A stretch of DNA of 64,000 nt from positions 1,984,001 through 2,048,000 of the forward strand of contig NZ_CP061038.1 of assembly GCF_014490665.1 (NCBI RefSeq), in the 5' to 3' direction. The DNA comes from Sphingomonas alpina (GTDB lineage Bacteria; Pseudomonadota; Alphaproteobacteria; Sphingomonadales; Sphingomonadaceae). The notes below the pieces were generated by a model. It ran no database searches, had not been told where the DNA came from, and saw only the letters and a list, made by a program, of their open reading frames with translations. Below, piece after piece: positions 8,738-55,413 of this stretch. How positions within the stretch are numbered: the first letter of the stretch is position 1; each line of letters begins with the position of its first letter. The translations under genes and the position numbers were made by a program.

Positions 8738-9517
8738 TCACGCGACGGTCTTGGCAAACAACCGATGGAAGTTGCGCGCCGTCGCCTCGGTCAGCTGTTC
8801 GACCGTCTCGCCACGCAAATTGGCCAGGAATTGCGCGGTGTCCGCGACGAATGCCGGCTCTCCGGTCCTGCCACGATGCGGTACCGGCGCCAGGAACGGC
8901 GCGTCGGTTTCGATCAGCAGCCGGTCGAGCGGCAGGCGTGCAGCGGTTTCCTGCAGGTCCTTCGCGTTCTTGAACGTCACGATCCCCGAAATCGAGATCA
9001 TGAAGCCCAGATCGAGCGCGATATCGGCAAAAGCACCGCTGGCAGTGAAGCAATGGATGACGCCGGGATAGGCCCCCTTCCCCAGCTCGTCGCGCAGGAT
9101 CGCAGCGGTATCCTCCTCGGCGTCACGCGTATGCACGACGATCGGCAATCCGGTCTCGCGTGCCGCAGCGATATGTGCGCGAAAGCTGATCTGCTGCCGC
9201 TCGCGGTCGCTATGGTCGTAATAATAGTCGAGCCCGCTTTCGCCGATGCCGACGACGCGCGGATGCCGCGCGCGATCGACCAGCTTGGCGGTGTCGATAT
9301 GCGCATGCTGGTCGGCCTCATGCGGATGAATTCCGACCGTCGCCCAGACATCGGCCTCGCGCTCGGCAGTGGCCAGCACATCGTCCCACTCACTCTCGCG
9401 CGTCGCGATGTTGAGCATGGCTGTCACGCCCCGCGCGCGGGCACGCTCGAGCACGCCCGCCTGATCCTCGGCGAGCCCCTTGTAATTCAGGTGGCAATGG
9501 CTGTCGGCAAGCATCAA
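8738..9517 (-). CDS. tatD: TatD-family metal-dependent hydrolase
   Basis: 259 residues of TIM-barrel amidohydrolase. It shows the first metal site DSHCHLNY, then VGIHPHEAD, GIGESGLDYYY, VVHTRDA, GVIHCFTAS and LIETDAPFLAP, in the family order. TatD proteins have 3'-5' DNase activity and roles in nucleic-acid repair or turnover. The start overlaps the metG stop, and the metG-tatD-MBL order is common in bacteria. Confidence 0.94.
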   Translation of the reverse strand: MMLADSHCHLNYKGLAEDQAGVLERARARGVTAMLNIATRESEWDDVLATAEREADVWATVGIHPHEADQHAHIDTAKLVDRARHPRVVGIGESGLDYYYDHSDRERQQISFRAHIAAARETGLPIVVHTRDAEEDTAAILRDELGKGAYPGVIHCFTASGAFADIALDLGFMISISGIVTFKNAKDLQETAARLPLDRLLIETDAPFLAPVPHRGRTGEPAFVADTAQFLANLRGETVEQLTEATARNFHRLFAKTVA

Positions 9518-11052
9518 CCCGGCTCCGCCGCCAGTTCCAGCCGCGGGAACACGCCGCTCGGCGCAGGCAAGATCGTGCCAGACGCGACCGGCCGGTTCAG
9601 TGCGGTAAAGTCACGCGCATCGGCATTCTGTCCGAGCAGGTCGAGCAACCGGTCCGCACCGTCAGGGATTGCCCAGCGTGCCATGATCGCGATGCGGCGG
9701 ATCGCCTCGATCGTGAAGTGCAGGATGGTATCGGCCCGTGCCGGATCGGTCTTGCGCACGCTCCACGGCGCGGCATCGGCGAAATACTGGTTGGCGTCAC
9801 GCGCCGCCGACCACACCGCCTCCAGTGCATTATGCAGCGCGAGTTCACCCATCGCCGCATGCAAACCGGCTTCGGCCGCCGCAACGCTGGCCAGCAGGGC
9901 CTCTTCGGTCTCCGTCGGCGGCCCCGCCGGCGGTACCTTGCCATCGCAATTCTTGGCGACGATCGACAGGCAGCGCTGCGCGAGATTGCCGACATTATTG
10001 GCGAGATCGGCATTGCAGCGCGTAACGATCGCCTCTTCCGAATAGCTGCCGTCCTGGCCGAAGCTCACTTCGCGCAGCAGGAAATAGCGCAGCGCATCGA
10101 CCCCGAACCGTTCGACCAGCTCGATCGGGTCCGTGACGTTGCCGACCGACTTCGACATCTTCTCGCCGCGGTTGAGCAGGAAACCATGCCCGAACACCCG
10201 CCGCGGCAGCGCCAGCTTCGCAGACATCAGGAAGGCTGGCCAGTAAACGGCATGGAATCGCACGATATCCTTGCCGATCACATGCAGATCGGCCGGCCAG
10301 TAGCGCGCGAAATCAGCGGCATTGTCGGGATAGCCGGCGCCAGTCAGGTAATTGGTCAGCGCATCGACCCAGACATACATCACATGCCCCGGGCTGCCCG
10401 GCACCTTCACGCCCCAATCGAAGCTGGTGCGCGACACCGACAGGTCGGACAGGCCGCCCTCGACGAAGCGCATCACTTCATTGCGCCGCGTCTCGGGCAG
10501 GATGAAGTCGGGCTGTGCGTTATAGAGGTCGAGCAATGGCTGCTGATATTTCGACAGGCGGAAGAACCAGGTCTCCTCCGCGGTCCATTCGACCGGCGTC
10601 CCCTGCGGGGAAAGCTTGCCCCCTTCCCCGTCGACCAGTTCCTTCTCGTCATAGAACGCCTCGTCGCGGACCGAGTACCAGCCCTCGTAGCGATCGAGAT
10701 ACAGGTCCCCGGCATCGGCCATCGCCTGCCAGATCGCTGCGCTGGCGGCATGATGCTCGGGCTCGACCGTGCGGATGAAACGATCATAGGAGATGTTCAG
10801 TTTCTGATTCATCTCCTTGAAATAGGATGACATTTCATCGGCGAGCGCGCGCGTTTCCACGCCCCGGTCGCGTGCCGTCTGAACCATTTTCAGGCCATGT
10901 TCGTCGGTCCCGGTCTGGAACCGCACATCCCGCCCAGCCTGGCGATGATAGCGCGCGATCGCGTCGGTCGCGATCACTTCGTAAGCGTGGCCGATATGCG
11001 GGCGTCCATTGGGATAGCTGATCGCGGTGGTGATATAATAAGGGTCGCCCAT
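9514..11052 (-). CDS. metG: Methionyl-tRNA synthetase
   Basis: 512 residues, the short class Ia form. The HIGH-type motif is YPNGRPHIGHAYE and the KMSKS loop is GEKMSKSVGN. The segment between the Rossmann halves (YEGWYSVRDEAFYDEKEL) has no Cys pairs, so this is the zinc-free variety without the C-terminal tRNA-binding extension. It charges tRNA-Met in the cytoplasm. It lies 400 bases downstream of holB, separated by repeat element A, so it probably has its own promoter within 11053-11207. Confidence 0.96.
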   Translation of the reverse strand: MGDPYYITTAISYPNGRPHIGHAYEVIATDAIARYHRQAGRDVRFQTGTDEHGLKMVQTARDRGVETRALADEMSSYFKEMNQKLNISYDRFIRTVEPEHHAASAAIWQAMADAGDLYLDRYEGWYSVRDEAFYDEKELVDGEGGKLSPQGTPVEWTAEETWFFRLSKYQQPLLDLYNAQPDFILPETRRNEVMRFVEGGLSDLSVSRTSFDWGVKVPGSPGHVMYVWVDALTNYLTGAGYPDNAADFARYWPADLHVIGKDIVRFHAVYWPAFLMSAKLALPRRVFGHGFLLNRGEKMSKSVGNVTDPIELVERFGVDALRYFLLREVSFGQDGSYSEEAIVTRCNADLANNVGNLAQRCLSIVAKNCDGKVPPAGPPTETEEALLASVAAAEAGLHAAMGELALHNALEAVWSAARDANQYFADAAPWSVRKTDPARADTILHFTIEAIRRIAIMARWAIPDGADRLLDLLGQNADARDFTALNRPVASGTILPAPSGVFPRLELAAEPG

Positions 11053-11207
11053 GCGCGCCTCCTAGCGCGGTTTTCCGGTGATTAGAACCACCGACACAAT
11101 CGTTTGCGCACGATTCAATGTCGGCCTGAACTGAGGCAGGAGATGCTCTCGCGCGCAATGGCGGGCACAGCAGCTCTTTCTCATCGTCGATCCGGGATCA
11201 CAGCCAT

Positions 11208-11434
11208 GGCTGGCTGTTATCGCAGAAACAGCCATCAACACTGGCTGTTAGCTGGCTGTTAGCTGGCTGTTAGCTGGCTGTTACCTGGCTGTTATGCTGG
11301 CTGATAACTGGCTGATAACTGGCTGTTATTCGATAACAGCCAGCGCCCTGCAAGATCATGAAATTAAACAGGAAATCCTCAGTAGATATCCAACTTAACA
11401 GCCAGGAAAACAATATCGCGCGATTAACAGCCAG
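11208..11434. repeat. Repeat element A: array and hairpins of CTGGCTGTTA
   Basis: This fills most of the 401-base gap between holB and metG. From left to right it has five parts. Hairpin 1 is GGCTGTT (11212-11218) with AACAGCC (11227-11233). Eight direct units CTGGCTGTTA (two read CTGGCTGATA) start at 11241, 11252, 11263, 11274, 11285, 11297, 11308 and 11319, an 11-12 base period close to one helical turn. Hairpin 2 pairs the last unit with 11333-11343 as an 11-bp stem with a TCG loop. An A+T-richer spacer of 52 bases follows. Two inverted units TAACAGCCAG lie at 11396 and 11425, the first inside ATCCAACTTAACAGCCAG. Element B at 54194-54388 has the same layout. The stretch 11053-11207 shows only presumptive promoter sequence and the palindrome CAGCCATGGCTG (11201-11212). 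Confidence 0.9.
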
Positions 11435-11453
11435 GAACAGCGAGCTTTCGCCT

Positions 11454-12446
11454 TCACGACCGGGCCGGCTCGGCCAGAGTCGCGACAAGACCGGCCATCT
11501 CGAACACCGTCGCCTGCGCATCGAGCGACAGGCTGCGTGCACTGGCGGACAATGCGCGCGCGGCGTCATAACTGTTCAGGGCGGTCTGCAGCGCAGCGCC
11601 ATGCTTCGCCGGTGCAGCGGCGGCGATGAAGGCAGGCGCGCGGTCGAGAAACGCCTCGTACCGTGGTTGCGCCGCCTTGGGCGACAAAAGCTTGGCCAGC
11701 TTGGCGCGCTGCGTATTGCTCGGGTCGCCATCCCTGGCGATACCGGTCATCGCCTTGTCGAGCGCCGCCATATCGAGCCCGGCAAAGCCGAGCGCGCGGC
11801 CGGGCGAGCCCTGCCCCGCCGTCACCAGCGCCGCGATTTCGGTGGCATTGGCATCCGGCAATTGCGCGCGCAGCACACGCTCCATTGCCGCATCGTCGAG
11901 CGGATCGAAGCGCAGCAGGCGACAGCGCGAGCGGATCGTCGGCAGCAACCGGCCGGGCGCATGGCTGATCAGCAGGAAGATCGTGCCGGCCGGCGGCTCC
12001 TCCAGGCTCTTGAGCAAGGCGTTCGAGGCACCGGGTCGCTCCACCTCGTCGATCGCATCGATCAGGACGATACGACGCGACGACATGGATGGCGTGGTCG
12101 CGAACATCGGTCCCAATGCACGGACCTGCGCGATCGGAATGCTCCGCGCGAGATCCTGCCCCGGCTTGTCGGCATCCTTGGGCTGGCGCGTCAGTTCGCG
12201 ATAATCGGGATGCGATCCGGCAGCGATCAGCGAGCGCGTGCGATCCGTGCCCGGCACGTCATAGCCGGGCGGCAACGAACCGGGGTTTGCGCCTTCGGCC
12301 AGCAGGCGCAGCGCAGCAATCCGCGCGAAAGTCGCCTTACCCACGCCTTCGGGGCCCGCGAACAGCCAGGCATGGTGCAATGTCCCGCCCGTCATCGCCG
12401 AGGCAAAGGCGGCATGTGCGGCGTCATTGCCGATCGGCAGGGTCAT
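11454..12446 (-). CDS. holB: DNA polymerase III delta' subunit
   Basis: 330 residues. AAA+ clamp-loader type: LHHAWLFAGPEGVGKATFAR carries the Walker A, RRIVLIDAIDEVE the Walker B, NALLKSLEEPPA the sensor region and LPTIRSRCRLLRF the SRC motif. It is the delta' wrench of the clamp loader that places the beta clamp on DNA. It overlaps tmk by 4 bases; tmk-holB is a standard pair. Element A starts 20 bases after its stop codon. Confidence 0.95.
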   Translation of the reverse strand: MTLPIGNDAAHAAFASAMTGGTLHHAWLFAGPEGVGKATFARIAALRLLAEGANPGSLPPGYDVPGTDRTRSLIAAGSHPDYRELTRQPKDADKPGQDLARSIPIAQVRALGPMFATTPSMSSRRIVLIDAIDEVERPGASNALLKSLEEPPAGTIFLLISHAPGRLLPTIRSRCRLLRFDPLDDAAMERVLRAQLPDANATEIAALVTAGQGSPGRALGFAGLDMAALDKAMTGIARDGDPSNTQRAKLAKLLSPKAAQPRYEAFLDRAPAFIAAAAPAKHGAALQTALNSYDAARALSASARSLSLDAQATVFEMAGLVATLAEPARS

Positions 12447-52902: not shown

Positions 52903-53481
52903 TCAATTTGCAGGTTCCACCAGTTTGGACCGGTGGCGATTGCGCCATTTGCGCGCGATCCACAGGCGCCAGCCCAGTGCGCTGCCGACATACCCGACCA
53001 CAGCAAAAACGATCGTGATCACGAACAGTCCGACGATCGTCGCCGGCGCGGCTTCGGACATGATCCAGCTCAGCCAGCTCGCATTGGCGGCAACAGTATC
53101 GGCGATCGGGCTCCCCGGCACATGCGCATCCAGTCGCAACACCCAGCGTCCGATCCAATAGGCCGCGACCCAAAGCGGTGGCGTGGTGAAGGGGTTGGTG
53201 ATGAAAGTGGTCAGCGCCGCCGCCGGAATATTGGCGCGGAACGGCAGCGCGAGGACCGCCGACAATGGCACCTGCGCGACGGGCGCGAGGATGCCGGTCA
53301 CCATGCCGAGCGCAACGCCACGCGGCACTGACCGGCGGGTAAAGCGCCACAGCTCGGGCCGCAGCACGCGGTGCGCGACGGGCTTGAGAAAGCGGTTGCT
53401 TTCCATGCTCTCGCGCGTCGGCATGTTGCGGCGGCACCATGCGACGAACTTGGCGAACACCCCCTGCTCAGCCACGATCAC
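52903..53481 (-). CDS. DUF2062 membrane protein
   Basis: 192 residues. Conserved DUF2062 stretch [20 protein letters not shown], then [20 protein letters not shown] and [15 protein letters not shown] final membrane helix ([20 protein letters not shown]) and a basic tail follow. Function unknown in the family. It overlaps the smpB stop by 14 bases on the same strand. Confidence 0.9.
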
Positions 53482-53950
53482 GCATCAGTCTTCCCTGCTC
53501 GCGCTTCCAGTCGCGCTCCTTGATCGTCTCGCGCTTGTCATGCGCCTTCTTGCCCTTCGCCAATGCCAGTTCCACCTTCGCCTTGCCCGACGAATTGAAA
53601 TAGATCGACAGCGGCACCAGGGTCATCCCTTCGCGCGCCACCGCCCCGTGCATCTTGTTTATCTCCCGCTCATGAAGGAGCAATTTACGGGGGCGCTTCG
53701 GCTCATGGTTGAAACGATTGCCATGGGAAAATTCCGGCACGTTGGAATTGATCAGCCAGACCTGGCCATCATCGACCTCGGCGTAGCTTTCCGCAATCGA
53801 GCCCTGGCCGGTACGAAGGCTCTTCACCTCGGTGCCGGTCAGCGCGATGCCCGCCTCGTAGACCGTCTCGATCGAATAATCGAACTTGGCGCGCCGGTTC
53901 TCGGCGACGATCTTGGTCTTTTCGAAGGTAGCGGGTTTGGGACGTGCCAT
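53468..53950 (-). CDS. smpB: tmRNA-binding protein SmpB
   Basis: 160 residues from ATG 53950. SmpB landmarks: [61 protein letters not shown] and the basic tail [20 protein letters not shown]. It delivers tmRNA to stalled ribosomes. No tmRNA gene is seen next to it. Downstream of dapA, separated by element B. Confidence 0.96.
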
Positions 53951-54193
53951 GGGAGGTGGGCATGTAGGCGCGAGCGCGGCAGATTGGAAGCGGGTGCGCA
54001 TCTCCCCTGAGATATCGTCACCATCCGATCGTGCGATGGGGCTGCATTTGACGACAATGAGGTGGCCGGGAGCGCCGATTCAACAATATGGCGGATGATG
54101 AAATCGTGGCGGCGGACGGAAAAACCGGTCGGCTCACCGTCCCGCTCTTTCTCATGACTGGAAAAACCATCGGCCTGATCCGCCGATTTGGTC

Positions 54194-54388
54194 GGCTGGC
54201 TGTTCCGATCAATAACAGCCAGCGTGCTGGCTGTTATTCGCTGTTCGGTTGGCTGTTATGCTGGCTGTTCCATGGCTGTTATTCGATAACAGCCAGGTCG
54301 GACATAAACATCTGAAATACATAAGTAATTTTGGCCGAAAAATCCAACTTAACAGCCAGCAAAATTCATTCCCGGAAATAACAGCCAG
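54194..54388. repeat. Repeat element B: second copy of the CTGGCTGTTA element
   Basis: It fills part of the 494-base gap between dapA and smpB. Hairpin 1 is GGCTGTT (54198-54204) with AACAGCC (54214-54220). Direct CTGGCTGTTA-like units start at about 54227, 54249, 54261 and 54272. Hairpin 2 is TGGCTGTTAT-TCG-ATAACAGCCA (54273-54295). After 53-54 bases come ATCCAACTTAACAGCCAG, with its unit at 54350-54359, and a final TAACAGCCAGGA with its unit at 54379-54388. The 29-base spacing of the last two units equals that in element A. The rest of the gap (53951-54193) shows no convincing gene. Confidence 0.9.
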
Positions 54389-54444: not shown

Positions 54445-55326
54445 TCAACGAATTCCCGCCTGCTTCAGCGCCGCATCCACGGCATGCTGACTGGCCTCAC
54501 CCGGCCAGGTCATCGGCAGGCGCAGACCGGTCGGCCATTCCGGCTTCACCTGGCCCAGGGCATATTTCACCGGCCCCGGAGAGGCGTCGGTGAACAATGC
54601 CGTATGCAGCGGAAAGAGCTTGTCCTGATGCGCCAGCGCCTTGGCATAATCGCCTGCAGCGCAAGCCGCCTGAAACTCCGCGCACAGCCTTGGCGCGATA
54701 TTGGCAGTGACTGAAATGCATCCCACGCCACCGCTGGCGTTGAACGCCAGCGCCATATCGTCATTGCCGGATAGCTGGCAGAAGGCCTCACCGCATATGT
54801 CACGCTGAGCCGAGGCGCGCTGAATGATACCGGTCGCGTCCTTCAGTCCAACCACGCTCGGGAAAGCCTTCGCGATCCGGCCGATCGTTTCGACATGGAT
54901 ATCGGTGACGGTGCGGGCGGGAACATTGTACAGGACGATCGGCAAATCGCACGAATTGGCGACCGCTTCGAAATGGCGGAAGATACCCTCCTGATTGGGA
55001 CGGTTGTAATAAGGCGGGACCATCAGTGCCGCATCGGCGCCCGCGTCTTTCGCGGCCCGGATATTCTGGATCGCCACGCGCGTGTCGTTGGATCCCGCAC
55101 CGGCGATGACCGGGACCCTGCCCTTCGCCTGATCGACACAGACGCGCACGACGTGGAAATGCTCCTCCGCGCTCAGCGTCGCCGCTTCACCGGTCGTGCC
55201 ACATGGCACCAGACCGGCAGAGCCCTCCGCGATCTGCCACTCGACGAAATCGCGATAGGCATTTTCCGCAAAGGAGCCGTCCGCCTCGAACAGCGTGACG
55301 AGCGCCGGGATCGATCCCGAAAACAT
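54445..55326 (-). CDS. dapA: 4-hydroxy-tetrahydrodipicolinate synthase
   Basis: 293 residues. The sequence starts FSGSIPALVTLFEADGSFAE. Landmarks are GTTGEAATLSAEEH, AGAGSNDT, YYNRPNQEGIFRHF, YNVPARTVTD and the Schiff-base Lys in VVGLKDATG. It condenses pyruvate with aspartate semialdehyde for lysine and diaminopimelate synthesis. ATG 55326 was chosen because it matches the family start. Divergent from slt. Confidence 0.96.
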   Translation of the reverse strand: MFSGSIPALVTLFEADGSFAENAYRDFVEWQIAEGSAGLVPCGTTGEAATLSAEEHFHVVRVCVDQAKGRVPVIAGAGSNDTRVAIQNIRAAKDAGADAALMVPPYYNRPNQEGIFRHFEAVANSCDLPIVLYNVPARTVTDIHVETIGRIAKAFPSVVGLKDATGIIQRASAQRDICGEAFCQLSGNDDMALAFNASGGVGCISVTANIAPRLCAEFQAACAAGDYAKALAHQDKLFPLHTALFTDASPGPVKYALGQVKPEWPTGLRLPMTWPGEASQHAVDAALKQAGIR

Positions 55327-55354
55327 GGTTGATTTGCTCCCGCGGGGCGACGAA

Positions 55355-55382
55355 TCCCCACTTTTTCGTGATTTGTGGGGGA
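55355..55382. promoter_or_regulatory. Inverted repeat between dapA and slt
   Basis: TCCCCAC (55355-55361) and GTGGGGGA (55375-55382) form a hairpin-capable inverted repeat with a 13-base A+T-rich centre, in the 87-base gap between the divergent dapA and slt genes. It may be an operator or just part of overlapping promoters. Confidence 0.45.
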
Positions 55383-55413
55383 CAAATAGGGACCGATCGC
55401 CTATTCTGTCCAT

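Follow-up and report, generated by a model that had tools for sequence, protein, structure and literature searches.

A large dispersed family of elements with a boxA-like head and co-varying word arrays in Sphingomonas alpina, possibly genes for structured non-coding RNAs

In Escherichia coli the rRNA promoter is followed by boxB, boxA and boxC, of which boxA is bound by NusB, and tethering may help the helix between rRNA leader and trailer to form (PMC10250234). This paper and PMC7862264 are the sources for the comparison with rRNA leaders and with the boxA of CRISPR leaders. The boxA consensus of the gamma-proteobacteria has been given as GYTCTTTAANA, in a study from which non-coding RNAs were left out (PMC5725501). 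Among dispersed repeats, REP and REPIN sequences are 20-40 bp palindromes with the tetranucleotide GTAG or CGTC on one of the two ends (PMC3733652). An RNA from an intergenic repeat, naRNA4 of the E. coli REP325, has been placed in a model of RNA contacts with cruciform DNA (PMC6907758), and BOX and RUP are dispersed small interspersed repeats of Streptococcus pneumoniae (PMC3049150).

The element described here belongs to a large dispersed family of Sphingomonas alpina and its relatives. Its members have a common head and words that co-vary within the element, their units are under selection, loci shared between species carry switched words, and some copies have spread recently. Two copies, A and B, lie in the window, the whole stretch of 64,000 nucleotides that was analysed (Table 1). 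Allowing one mismatch, the 10-mer CTGGCTGTTA has 24 matches in the window against 0.94 expected (100 shuffles, largest 5), and 21 of these fall within copies A and B. A first-pass annotation had proposed an element built from this 10-mer between holB and metG, and the array, hairpins and inverted units are found where it placed them. Its extent of 11208-11434 for copy A covers the core as it was described, but the element really runs from 11112 to 11444, with a conserved head beginning at GATTCAA (11112) and an imperfect third tail unit (11435-11444).

Copy A has eight direct units at 11241-11328 in steps of 11-12, two of them reading CTGGCTGATA and the eighth forming the left arm of hairpin 2, followed by inverted units at 11396 and 11425. 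Copy B has its units, hairpins and tails in the same order (54196-54388) and, as had been claimed, at nearly equal spacing: the right arm of hairpin 2 and tail 1 are 62 bases apart, start to start, in copy A and 63 in copy B, while tails 1 and 2 are 29 apart in both. The z-scores of the RNA folding energy are -7.16 and -7.01 for copies A and B respectively. Copy A is flanked by a metG match (9514-11052) and a holB match (11454-12446), both on the minus strand; for the latter, holB-type models score below their cut-offs and Pfam DNA_pol3_delta2 above its cut-off. The neighbours of copy B are smpB (53468-54001) and dapA (54445-55413), also both on the minus strand.

Table 1. Positions of the features of copies A and B, numbered from the first base of the window.
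Copy	Feature	Position	Strand	Remark
A	GATTCAA, sharp left end; TTCAAT (11114-11119) read as -35 hexamer	11112..11118	+	GATTCAA in 35/35 CTGG elements, upstream unconserved
A	Putative -10 hexamer CAGGAG, 17 bp after -35; conserved base A at 11138	11137..11142	+	A in 33/35 CTGG elements, 156/168 heads
A	boxA-like GCTCTTTCTCAT; preceding 5' hairpin unconvincing	11173..11184	+	GCTCTTT on same side in 33/35 CTGG elements; weak stem
A	Hairpin 1, CTGGCTGTT / AACAGCCA	11210..11234	+	
A	Seven direct CTGGCTGTTA units, period 11-12	11241..11317	+	
A	Hairpin 2, CTGGCTGTTA-TTCGA-TAACAGCCAG	11319..11343	+	
A	ATCCAACT and tail arm 1 TAACAGCCAG	11388..11405	+	Recurs in other sub-types and relatives
A	Tail arm 2 TAACAGCCAG and degenerate tail arm 3 GAACAGCGAG; right end of element	11425..11444	+	
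B	GATTCAA, left end; TTCAAC (54079-54084) read as -35 hexamer	54077..54083	+	
B	Putative -10 hexamer AATCGT	54102..54107	+	
B	5' hairpin, CGGACGG (54113-54119) / CCGTCCC (54137-54143)	54113..54143	+	
B	boxA-like GCTCTTTCTCAT	54144..54155	+	
B	Hairpin 1	54196..54222	+	
B	Direct units	54227..54270	+	
B	Hairpin 2, ATGGCTGTTA-TTCGA-TAACAGCCAG	54272..54296	+	
B	ATCCAACT and tail arm 1	54342..54359	+	
B	Tail arm 2; right end	54379..54388	+	

The exact 10-mer, referred to as the CTGG word, occurs 170 times in the 5.20-Mb S. alpina genome, and 169 of the occurrences are contained in 35 elements of one plan. Both of the copies known from the window are real, but they are two of 35 with this 10-mer. A pattern of two CTGG units has 102 matches in the genome. 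For the exact 10-mer, the reversed word used as a control (48) has other dinucleotides and is no fair guide to the number expected; scaled shuffles give about 2-3. The loci were grouped from the matches listed for the exact 10-mer and the two-unit pattern, and the 35 elements were collected by the 10-mer alone, GATTCAA being sought afterwards within 250 bases. The search for more copies that had been proposed at the outset found many in S. alpina and further ones in relatives, and the libraries searched gave no match to a described family, in keeping with the earlier statement that the 10-mer belongs to no named one. Among 75 S. alpina elements, 71 are 257-370 bp long and four are 93-97 bp. 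One CTGG copy, L089 (G000 4400398-4400646), has an array of twelve mostly identical units, from which it appears that array length grows and shrinks.

GATTCAA is present in all 35 CTGG elements, in one orientation and 90-143 bases ahead of the first unit match. Upstream of it there is no conservation across the 35, which gives the element a sharp left boundary. GCTCTTT lies on the same side in 33 of them, being absent from L065 and L082. The head pattern has 91 matches in the S. alpina genome in its strict form and 115 when relaxed, with 0 for the reversed control, and 168 heads were parsed, 108 from S. alpina (among the matches listed) and 60 from seven relatives. All 168 contain GCTCTTT by search design; the CTGG elements had been collected without it. 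With TTCAAC/T set at -35 to -30, the A at offset 26, which is the most strongly conserved single base downstream, falls at -11 and the hexamers are exactly 17 bp apart. The A is found in 33 of the 35 CTGG elements and in 156 of the 168 heads, the flanks having 19% A; the -35/-10 reading depends on the spacing and this one strong base, as the -10 letters are unlike TATAAT. A promoter resembling that of RpoH on the reverse strand (TTGAATC) was rejected, the side of its would-be -10 being unconserved. The GATTC of the -35 region is also a GANTC (CcrM) site, the N being T in each of the 35 CTGG elements and fixed as T by the search in the heads beyond those. Control by methylation or the cell cycle is possible at such a site; with regard to GcrA/CcrM control, no GATTCAA rule is given in the passages of PMC7987155 used here.

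The expected transcription start would coincide with the beginning of a GC-rich hairpin. In the set of 143 heads that are 58-72 nt long, out of the 168, the stretch before boxA has a mean folding energy of -11.4 kcal/mol against -7.4 kcal/mol in shuffles; 129 of the 143 are below their own shuffle mean, and in 104 the stem ending at boxA exceeds the mean stem length of the shuffles. Such a hairpin is all but lacking in copy A, and between genomes G143 and G144 the stretch is no better conserved (177/203 identical) than the spacers (1272/1435). The order in the element is the putative -10, a 5' hairpin in most copies, the boxA-like GCTCTTTnnCAT, and then array and tails. The letters of the boxA-like site are GCTCTTT[CG]nCA(T), with the CA after two variable bases in 167 of the 168 parsed heads. 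They would agree with the alphaproteobacterial rRNA boxA, GCTCTTTGACAT; no 16S genes were found in the genomes searched, S. alpina included. From boxA to the first word there are 31-41 nt in 61 of 85 S. alpina elements. The site stands where it would be expected in a Nus-dependent transcript, soon after a putative promoter and ahead of what would be an untranslated RNA.

Arrays with the CTGTT core, which array elements share by definition, are carried by 119 of the 168 heads (85 of them in S. alpina) and are lacking from 49. The words have the form N4-CTGTTA, and there are at least five sub-types with words other than CTGG. By commonest word, the S. alpina array elements divide into CTGG (33, omitting the two CTGG elements without GCTCTTT), ACCC/ACCG (27), GCCC (12), CATG/GATG (6), CTCC (5) and two others. 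Of the 119 array elements, 83 have a recognisable ATCCAAC-TAACAG tail, type d being one that differs, and in 68 of these 83 the tail-1 word is identical to a word in the array of its own element (shuffled mean 17.7, maximum 32). The definition of hairpin 2 applies to 78 of the 119, and in these the N4 positions are Watson-Crick paired in 248 of 312 cells, against shuffled fractions of 0.39 (mean) and 0.52 (maximum), with two or three pair types at each position; the five columns of the core follow from the search pattern and are uninformative. The loop is 3-6 bases in 77 of the 78, the definition having allowed 1-7. Since array, hairpins and tails of one element share a word, it is indicated that the words pair.

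In predicted folds of these 78 elements, hairpin 2 pairs internally in 56 and has no partner above 0.3 in 15, whereas tail 1 pairs with the next array unit in 30 and with the unit after that in 12, and is without a partner above 0.3 in 27. The tail arms thus fold onto successive array units in most of the folds but not all. A right arm that runs straight into a T-run was found in 26 of the 27 elements of type c, in one of 12 of type b and in none of types a and e, and in type c this combination looks like an intrinsic terminator. Seven elements of G143 and G144 (L166, L167, L169, L173, L174, L175 and L177) were seen by eye to have a hairpin 2 with a bulged G, whose left arm is fitted by tail 1 free of the bulge. 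Two exclusive pairings would be possible as a result, and the alternative looks like a built-in switch. In L183 (G293) and L195 (G168) the array stops at CTGTT and runs into alike sequence, GTTAGGTGACAG..., perhaps an insert that targets the word.

The same head is also joined to other arrays. In S. alpina, 18 heads (17 aligned) lie not before an array but after hairpins GAGATATG...CATATCTC; these form class h (L230, L232-L236, L238-L246, L249 and L260). In class h the boxA that closes the head leads into (g/a)tgtcgaaaac, and the preceding hairpins, of the type GAGATATGnnACA...GGTGTnnCATATCTC, number up to three and show compensating TT/AA and GG/CC variants. To judge from these sequences, class h represents a second kind of array linked with this head. 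A further 14 of 18 aligned heads without a CTGTT array, 11 in G049 (L096, L102, L104, L106, L108, L110, L114, L118, L120, L122 and L267) and three in G168 (L188, L192 and L194), follow a TTCCCG array that has a GATTCA start of its own. The order in this class II is GATTCAG or GATTCAA, a stem, TTGAATC, TTCCCG words ending in CGGGAA, GATTCAA, often GCTA, a stem and boxA, and by this layout class II is a third array type. Heads that follow class h hairpins and TTCCCG arrays suggest that the head is a module joined to several arrays. In the flanks of L236 and L237 of S. alpina, an extra short repeat, CTGAGCTTGTCGAAG, and its reverse complement were observed after some heads.

Of the 295 genomes searched in the genus, eight contain the head pattern, the matches numbering 68 in S. 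alpina and 39 in G168 and falling to one in G271, and an independent tail pattern picked out the same eight together with a single match in G265. Element numbers in this Sphingomonas group range from a handful to more than 100 per genome. CTGG tails are found in G266 as well, so the word is not unique to one species. When the order was sampled evenly with 396 genomes, including 350 from outside the genus, S. alpina alone matched the head pattern. Of 25 stretches recovered by a scan of genome contigs, 18 bear Sphingomonas titles, one comes from an uncultured bin and six have other titles, which are taken for chance. The two-unit CTGG pattern gave 0-3 matches in each of 40 relatives, as in the control, and copy A had no match in a distant search of plasmids and phages. 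An exact 18-mer scan of viral contigs returned two contigs, identical to each other over 600 bases and with no head.

At several loci the element is shared between species and its word differs. The locus of copy A, matched by its downstream flank only, has an element with the word TCCG in G143 (L167) and G144 (L175). That of copy B has the word TTCC in the same two genomes (L168 and L176, downstream flank) and TGCC in G293 (L182, upstream flank). With both flanks matching, words differ at L068/L185, L075/L203, L079/L190/L116, L089/L193 and L150/L112, and the word is retained at L263/L269. In total, the word differs at seven of the eight S. alpina loci with an array in both genomes. Three further S. 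alpina elements, L153, L085 and L160, match G049 loci where the head is present and no CTGTT array accompanies it. The flanks of L079 are 91-93% identical; here an alignment across species is possible for the head, hairpins and tails, and opposite every CCAG in S. alpina there is CATG or a near form (CATA, CGTG, CAAG or CAGG).

Purifying selection on the units is supported by seven orthologous pairs from G143 and G144, in which 374 of 380 unit bases are identical against 1272 of 1435 spacer bases (Fisher p 3e-11), with a mild bias from units having been defined on one genome. Selection on the motifs had also been suggested by the first-pass annotation. In the same seven pairs GATTCAA is identical at 49/49 bases, boxA at 89/91 and the -10 region at 59/63. 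The upstream flanks of 300 bases, which are partly coding, are identical at 1757/2100, or at 1651/1800 when the poorly aligning L169/L177 is left out.

The reading favoured here, to which a slightly better than even chance is given, is that these are multicopy genes for structured non-coding RNAs, assisted by Nus factors, built like a miniature rRNA leader and also spreading as small elements. From the arrangement of motifs we infer a promoter, transcription, Nus loading, folding into a ladder and action within the family. The promoter, of the GATTCAA type, would lie wholly inside the element, and RNA polymerase would start some seven bases downstream of its -10, near 11149 in copy A and 54114 in copy B, at a distance of about 37 bases from the G of GATTCAA. 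The first bases transcribed would fold into a hairpin in most copies. GCTCTTTnnCAT would then act as boxA and load NusB/NusE onto the polymerase, which would keep Rho off the untranslated transcript and tether its 5' part. The N4-CTGTTA array would pair with its own reverse complements, hairpin 2 forming first and the tail arms pairing next with earlier units, to give a ladder of short helices comparable to a tethered rRNA leader awaiting its trailer. This array-word pairing is supported by the co-varying words. The word itself may be a private address common to many loci of one genome. Since CTGG, the one word tested, is almost absent elsewhere in S. alpina, the partner of the RNA would be the family itself or a dedicated protein, by way of RNA-RNA contacts from word to word, of RNA contacts with the DNA of other copies, or of a word-specific protein. 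Antisense action through the full word on mRNAs or operators elsewhere is disfavoured, with one of 170 exact words outside the CTGG elements. Occasionally, copies would spread as short elements with fixed ends. A simple RNA-gene model leaves unexplained the heads that follow other arrays, in class h and in class II of G049 and G168.

An unlikely, though not negligible, alternative is a selfish miniature mobile element, whose promoter, hairpins and words serve its own spread as ssDNA or RNA with a transposase encoded elsewhere, and whose words co-vary because the mobilising enzyme reads the hairpins. Copying has happened: eleven copies of sub-type b (ten in S. alpina, one in G168), with fixed ends and unrelated flanks, are 69.5-93.5% identical end to end, and G049 and G168 have no element at the L146 locus, their flank matches being separated by 106 and 51 nt where S. 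alpina has 434 and 444. The earlier view that the pattern does not reflect recent copying therefore fits copies A and B, whose loci are apparently old, but not sub-type b. A preference for convergent neighbours (31 of 75 S. alpina elements) and an avoidance of divergent ones (5 of 75), against an assumed 25% each, is as expected of tolerated insertions. Y1 transposase domains (PF01797) are present in six of seven element-bearing genomes tested (1-4 each) and in one of nine others (1). However, S. alpina, which has most of the copies, has 0 PF01797 matches, and none of the ten Y1 loci fetched from relatives (L282-L291, out of 15 matches) contains an element, which also led to the rejection of mobilisation by a RAYT. 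No terminal inverted repeats were seen by eye, and no target duplication was recognised at L146, the single empty site compared, where the flanks have diverged. Against this alternative there are also the loci of A and B, common to other species, and the purifying selection on the units.

It is decidedly less probable that the array acts as DNA, with a protein binding 10-mers phased by the helical turn for chromosome folding or regulation and the head serving as an accessory promoter. The period of 11-12 bases is about one helical turn, both orientations of the word occur at fixed distances and one word family is common to many loci of a genome. A concerted change of words would also be expected of a DNA-binding protein, which counts against reading the element as RNA only. 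The short loops of hairpin 2 and the right arm joined to a T-run in sub-type c are nevertheless RNA-like, the narrow boxA-to-word distance and the promoter-like spacing argue in the same direction, and the near absence of exact words outside the elements leaves no wider set of sites to be bound. Least credible, at a very small probability, are transcription terminators or insulators between genes that halt read-through or convergent transcription, whichever way it runs. Gene calls made with a simple program place 69 of the 75 S. alpina elements between genes, a neighbouring gene ends towards the right end of the element in 53, and type c has its T-runs. A promoter-like start and a boxA-like antitermination site would be unexpected in a terminator, though, and T-runs are missing from types a and e and nearly so from b; both orientations are found in tandem gene pairs (21 and 17, one of the 75 elements being left unassigned). 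Of the candidates listed by the first-pass annotation, then, the structured RNA is best supported, by the promoter-like head, the 5' hairpin of most copies, the boxA-like site, the pairing words and the T-run of one sub-type, while a REP-like element in the strict sense does not fit and the protein-binding array keeps the low rank given above.

If the elements are genes for structured RNAs, the word differing between species at one locus hints at an unrecognised RNA system. A tentative and rather doubtful extension is that of a genome-wide address system, in which more than 100 Nus-tethered RNAs of S. alpina would recognise each other, or each other's DNA, by a private word that drifts in concert while the loci stay fixed, so that lineages come to have different dialects. 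Should the RNAs be made, they would form a large unannotated RNA class in this genus, the function of Nus factors would reach beyond rRNA, CRISPR and mRNA leaders, and the family would be a natural experiment on how one genome keeps dispersed sequences alike.

The defining features of the known repeat and RNA classes are not those of this family. The words N4-CTGTTA and TAACAG-N4 were seen by eye to lack the GTAG or CGTC tag of REP/REPIN, and the ends, GATTCAA and AACAG-N4, form no inverted repeat with each other such as a MITE would have. The units abut (1-2 base linkers) or have irregular gaps and recur inverted, unlike a CRISPR array, in which unique spacers of nearly uniform length part the repeats and cas genes lie close by. 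At the gathering threshold the window gave only a tRNA among the Rfam families, and a permissive Rfam scan of 10 loci gave one sub-threshold match, off the element. The literature searched, mainly open-access and with large result sets sampled in part, holds no description of the family. With the features of REP, MITE, CRISPR and Rfam families tested for and not found, and with this literature result, the kind is rated as new. No class was found that combines a promoter of its own with a boxA head of the rRNA type and an array of self-complementary words, in numerous copies lying mostly between genes, or that shows concerted word change at loci staying put.

The 'boxA' of the pneumococcal BOX is the name of a module and not a NusB site. 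Like BOX and RUP, the present elements are dispersed small interspersed repeats, but the host is unrelated and so, presumably, are the sequences. Like REP/REPIN with their RAYT, they are numerous hairpin repeats found mainly between genes, with word families that vary from genome to genome and a bias towards convergent genes, but they are about ten times longer and have a promoter-like start of their own. They resemble the rRNA leader in the order of a promoter-like start, a hairpin, the boxA-like GCTCTTT and then, farther on, a 3' arm whose pairing partner is a 5' arm, and in that the RNA would be untranslated. In contrast to the rRNA leader their pairing arms are multiples of one word, and in contrast to both rRNA and CRISPR leaders nothing of rRNA or CRISPR lies downstream, the array-bearing elements being about 260-370 bp long and at more than 100 chromosomal places. 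Like naRNA4 they would give an RNA from an intergenic repeat, as the sequence suggests, although neither a promoter-boxA head nor word switching is named for naRNA4 in the passages of PMC6907758 cited here. The closest analogues would therefore seem to be the rRNA leader for the head and the REP-derived naRNA4 for a possible role, membership being claimed in neither.
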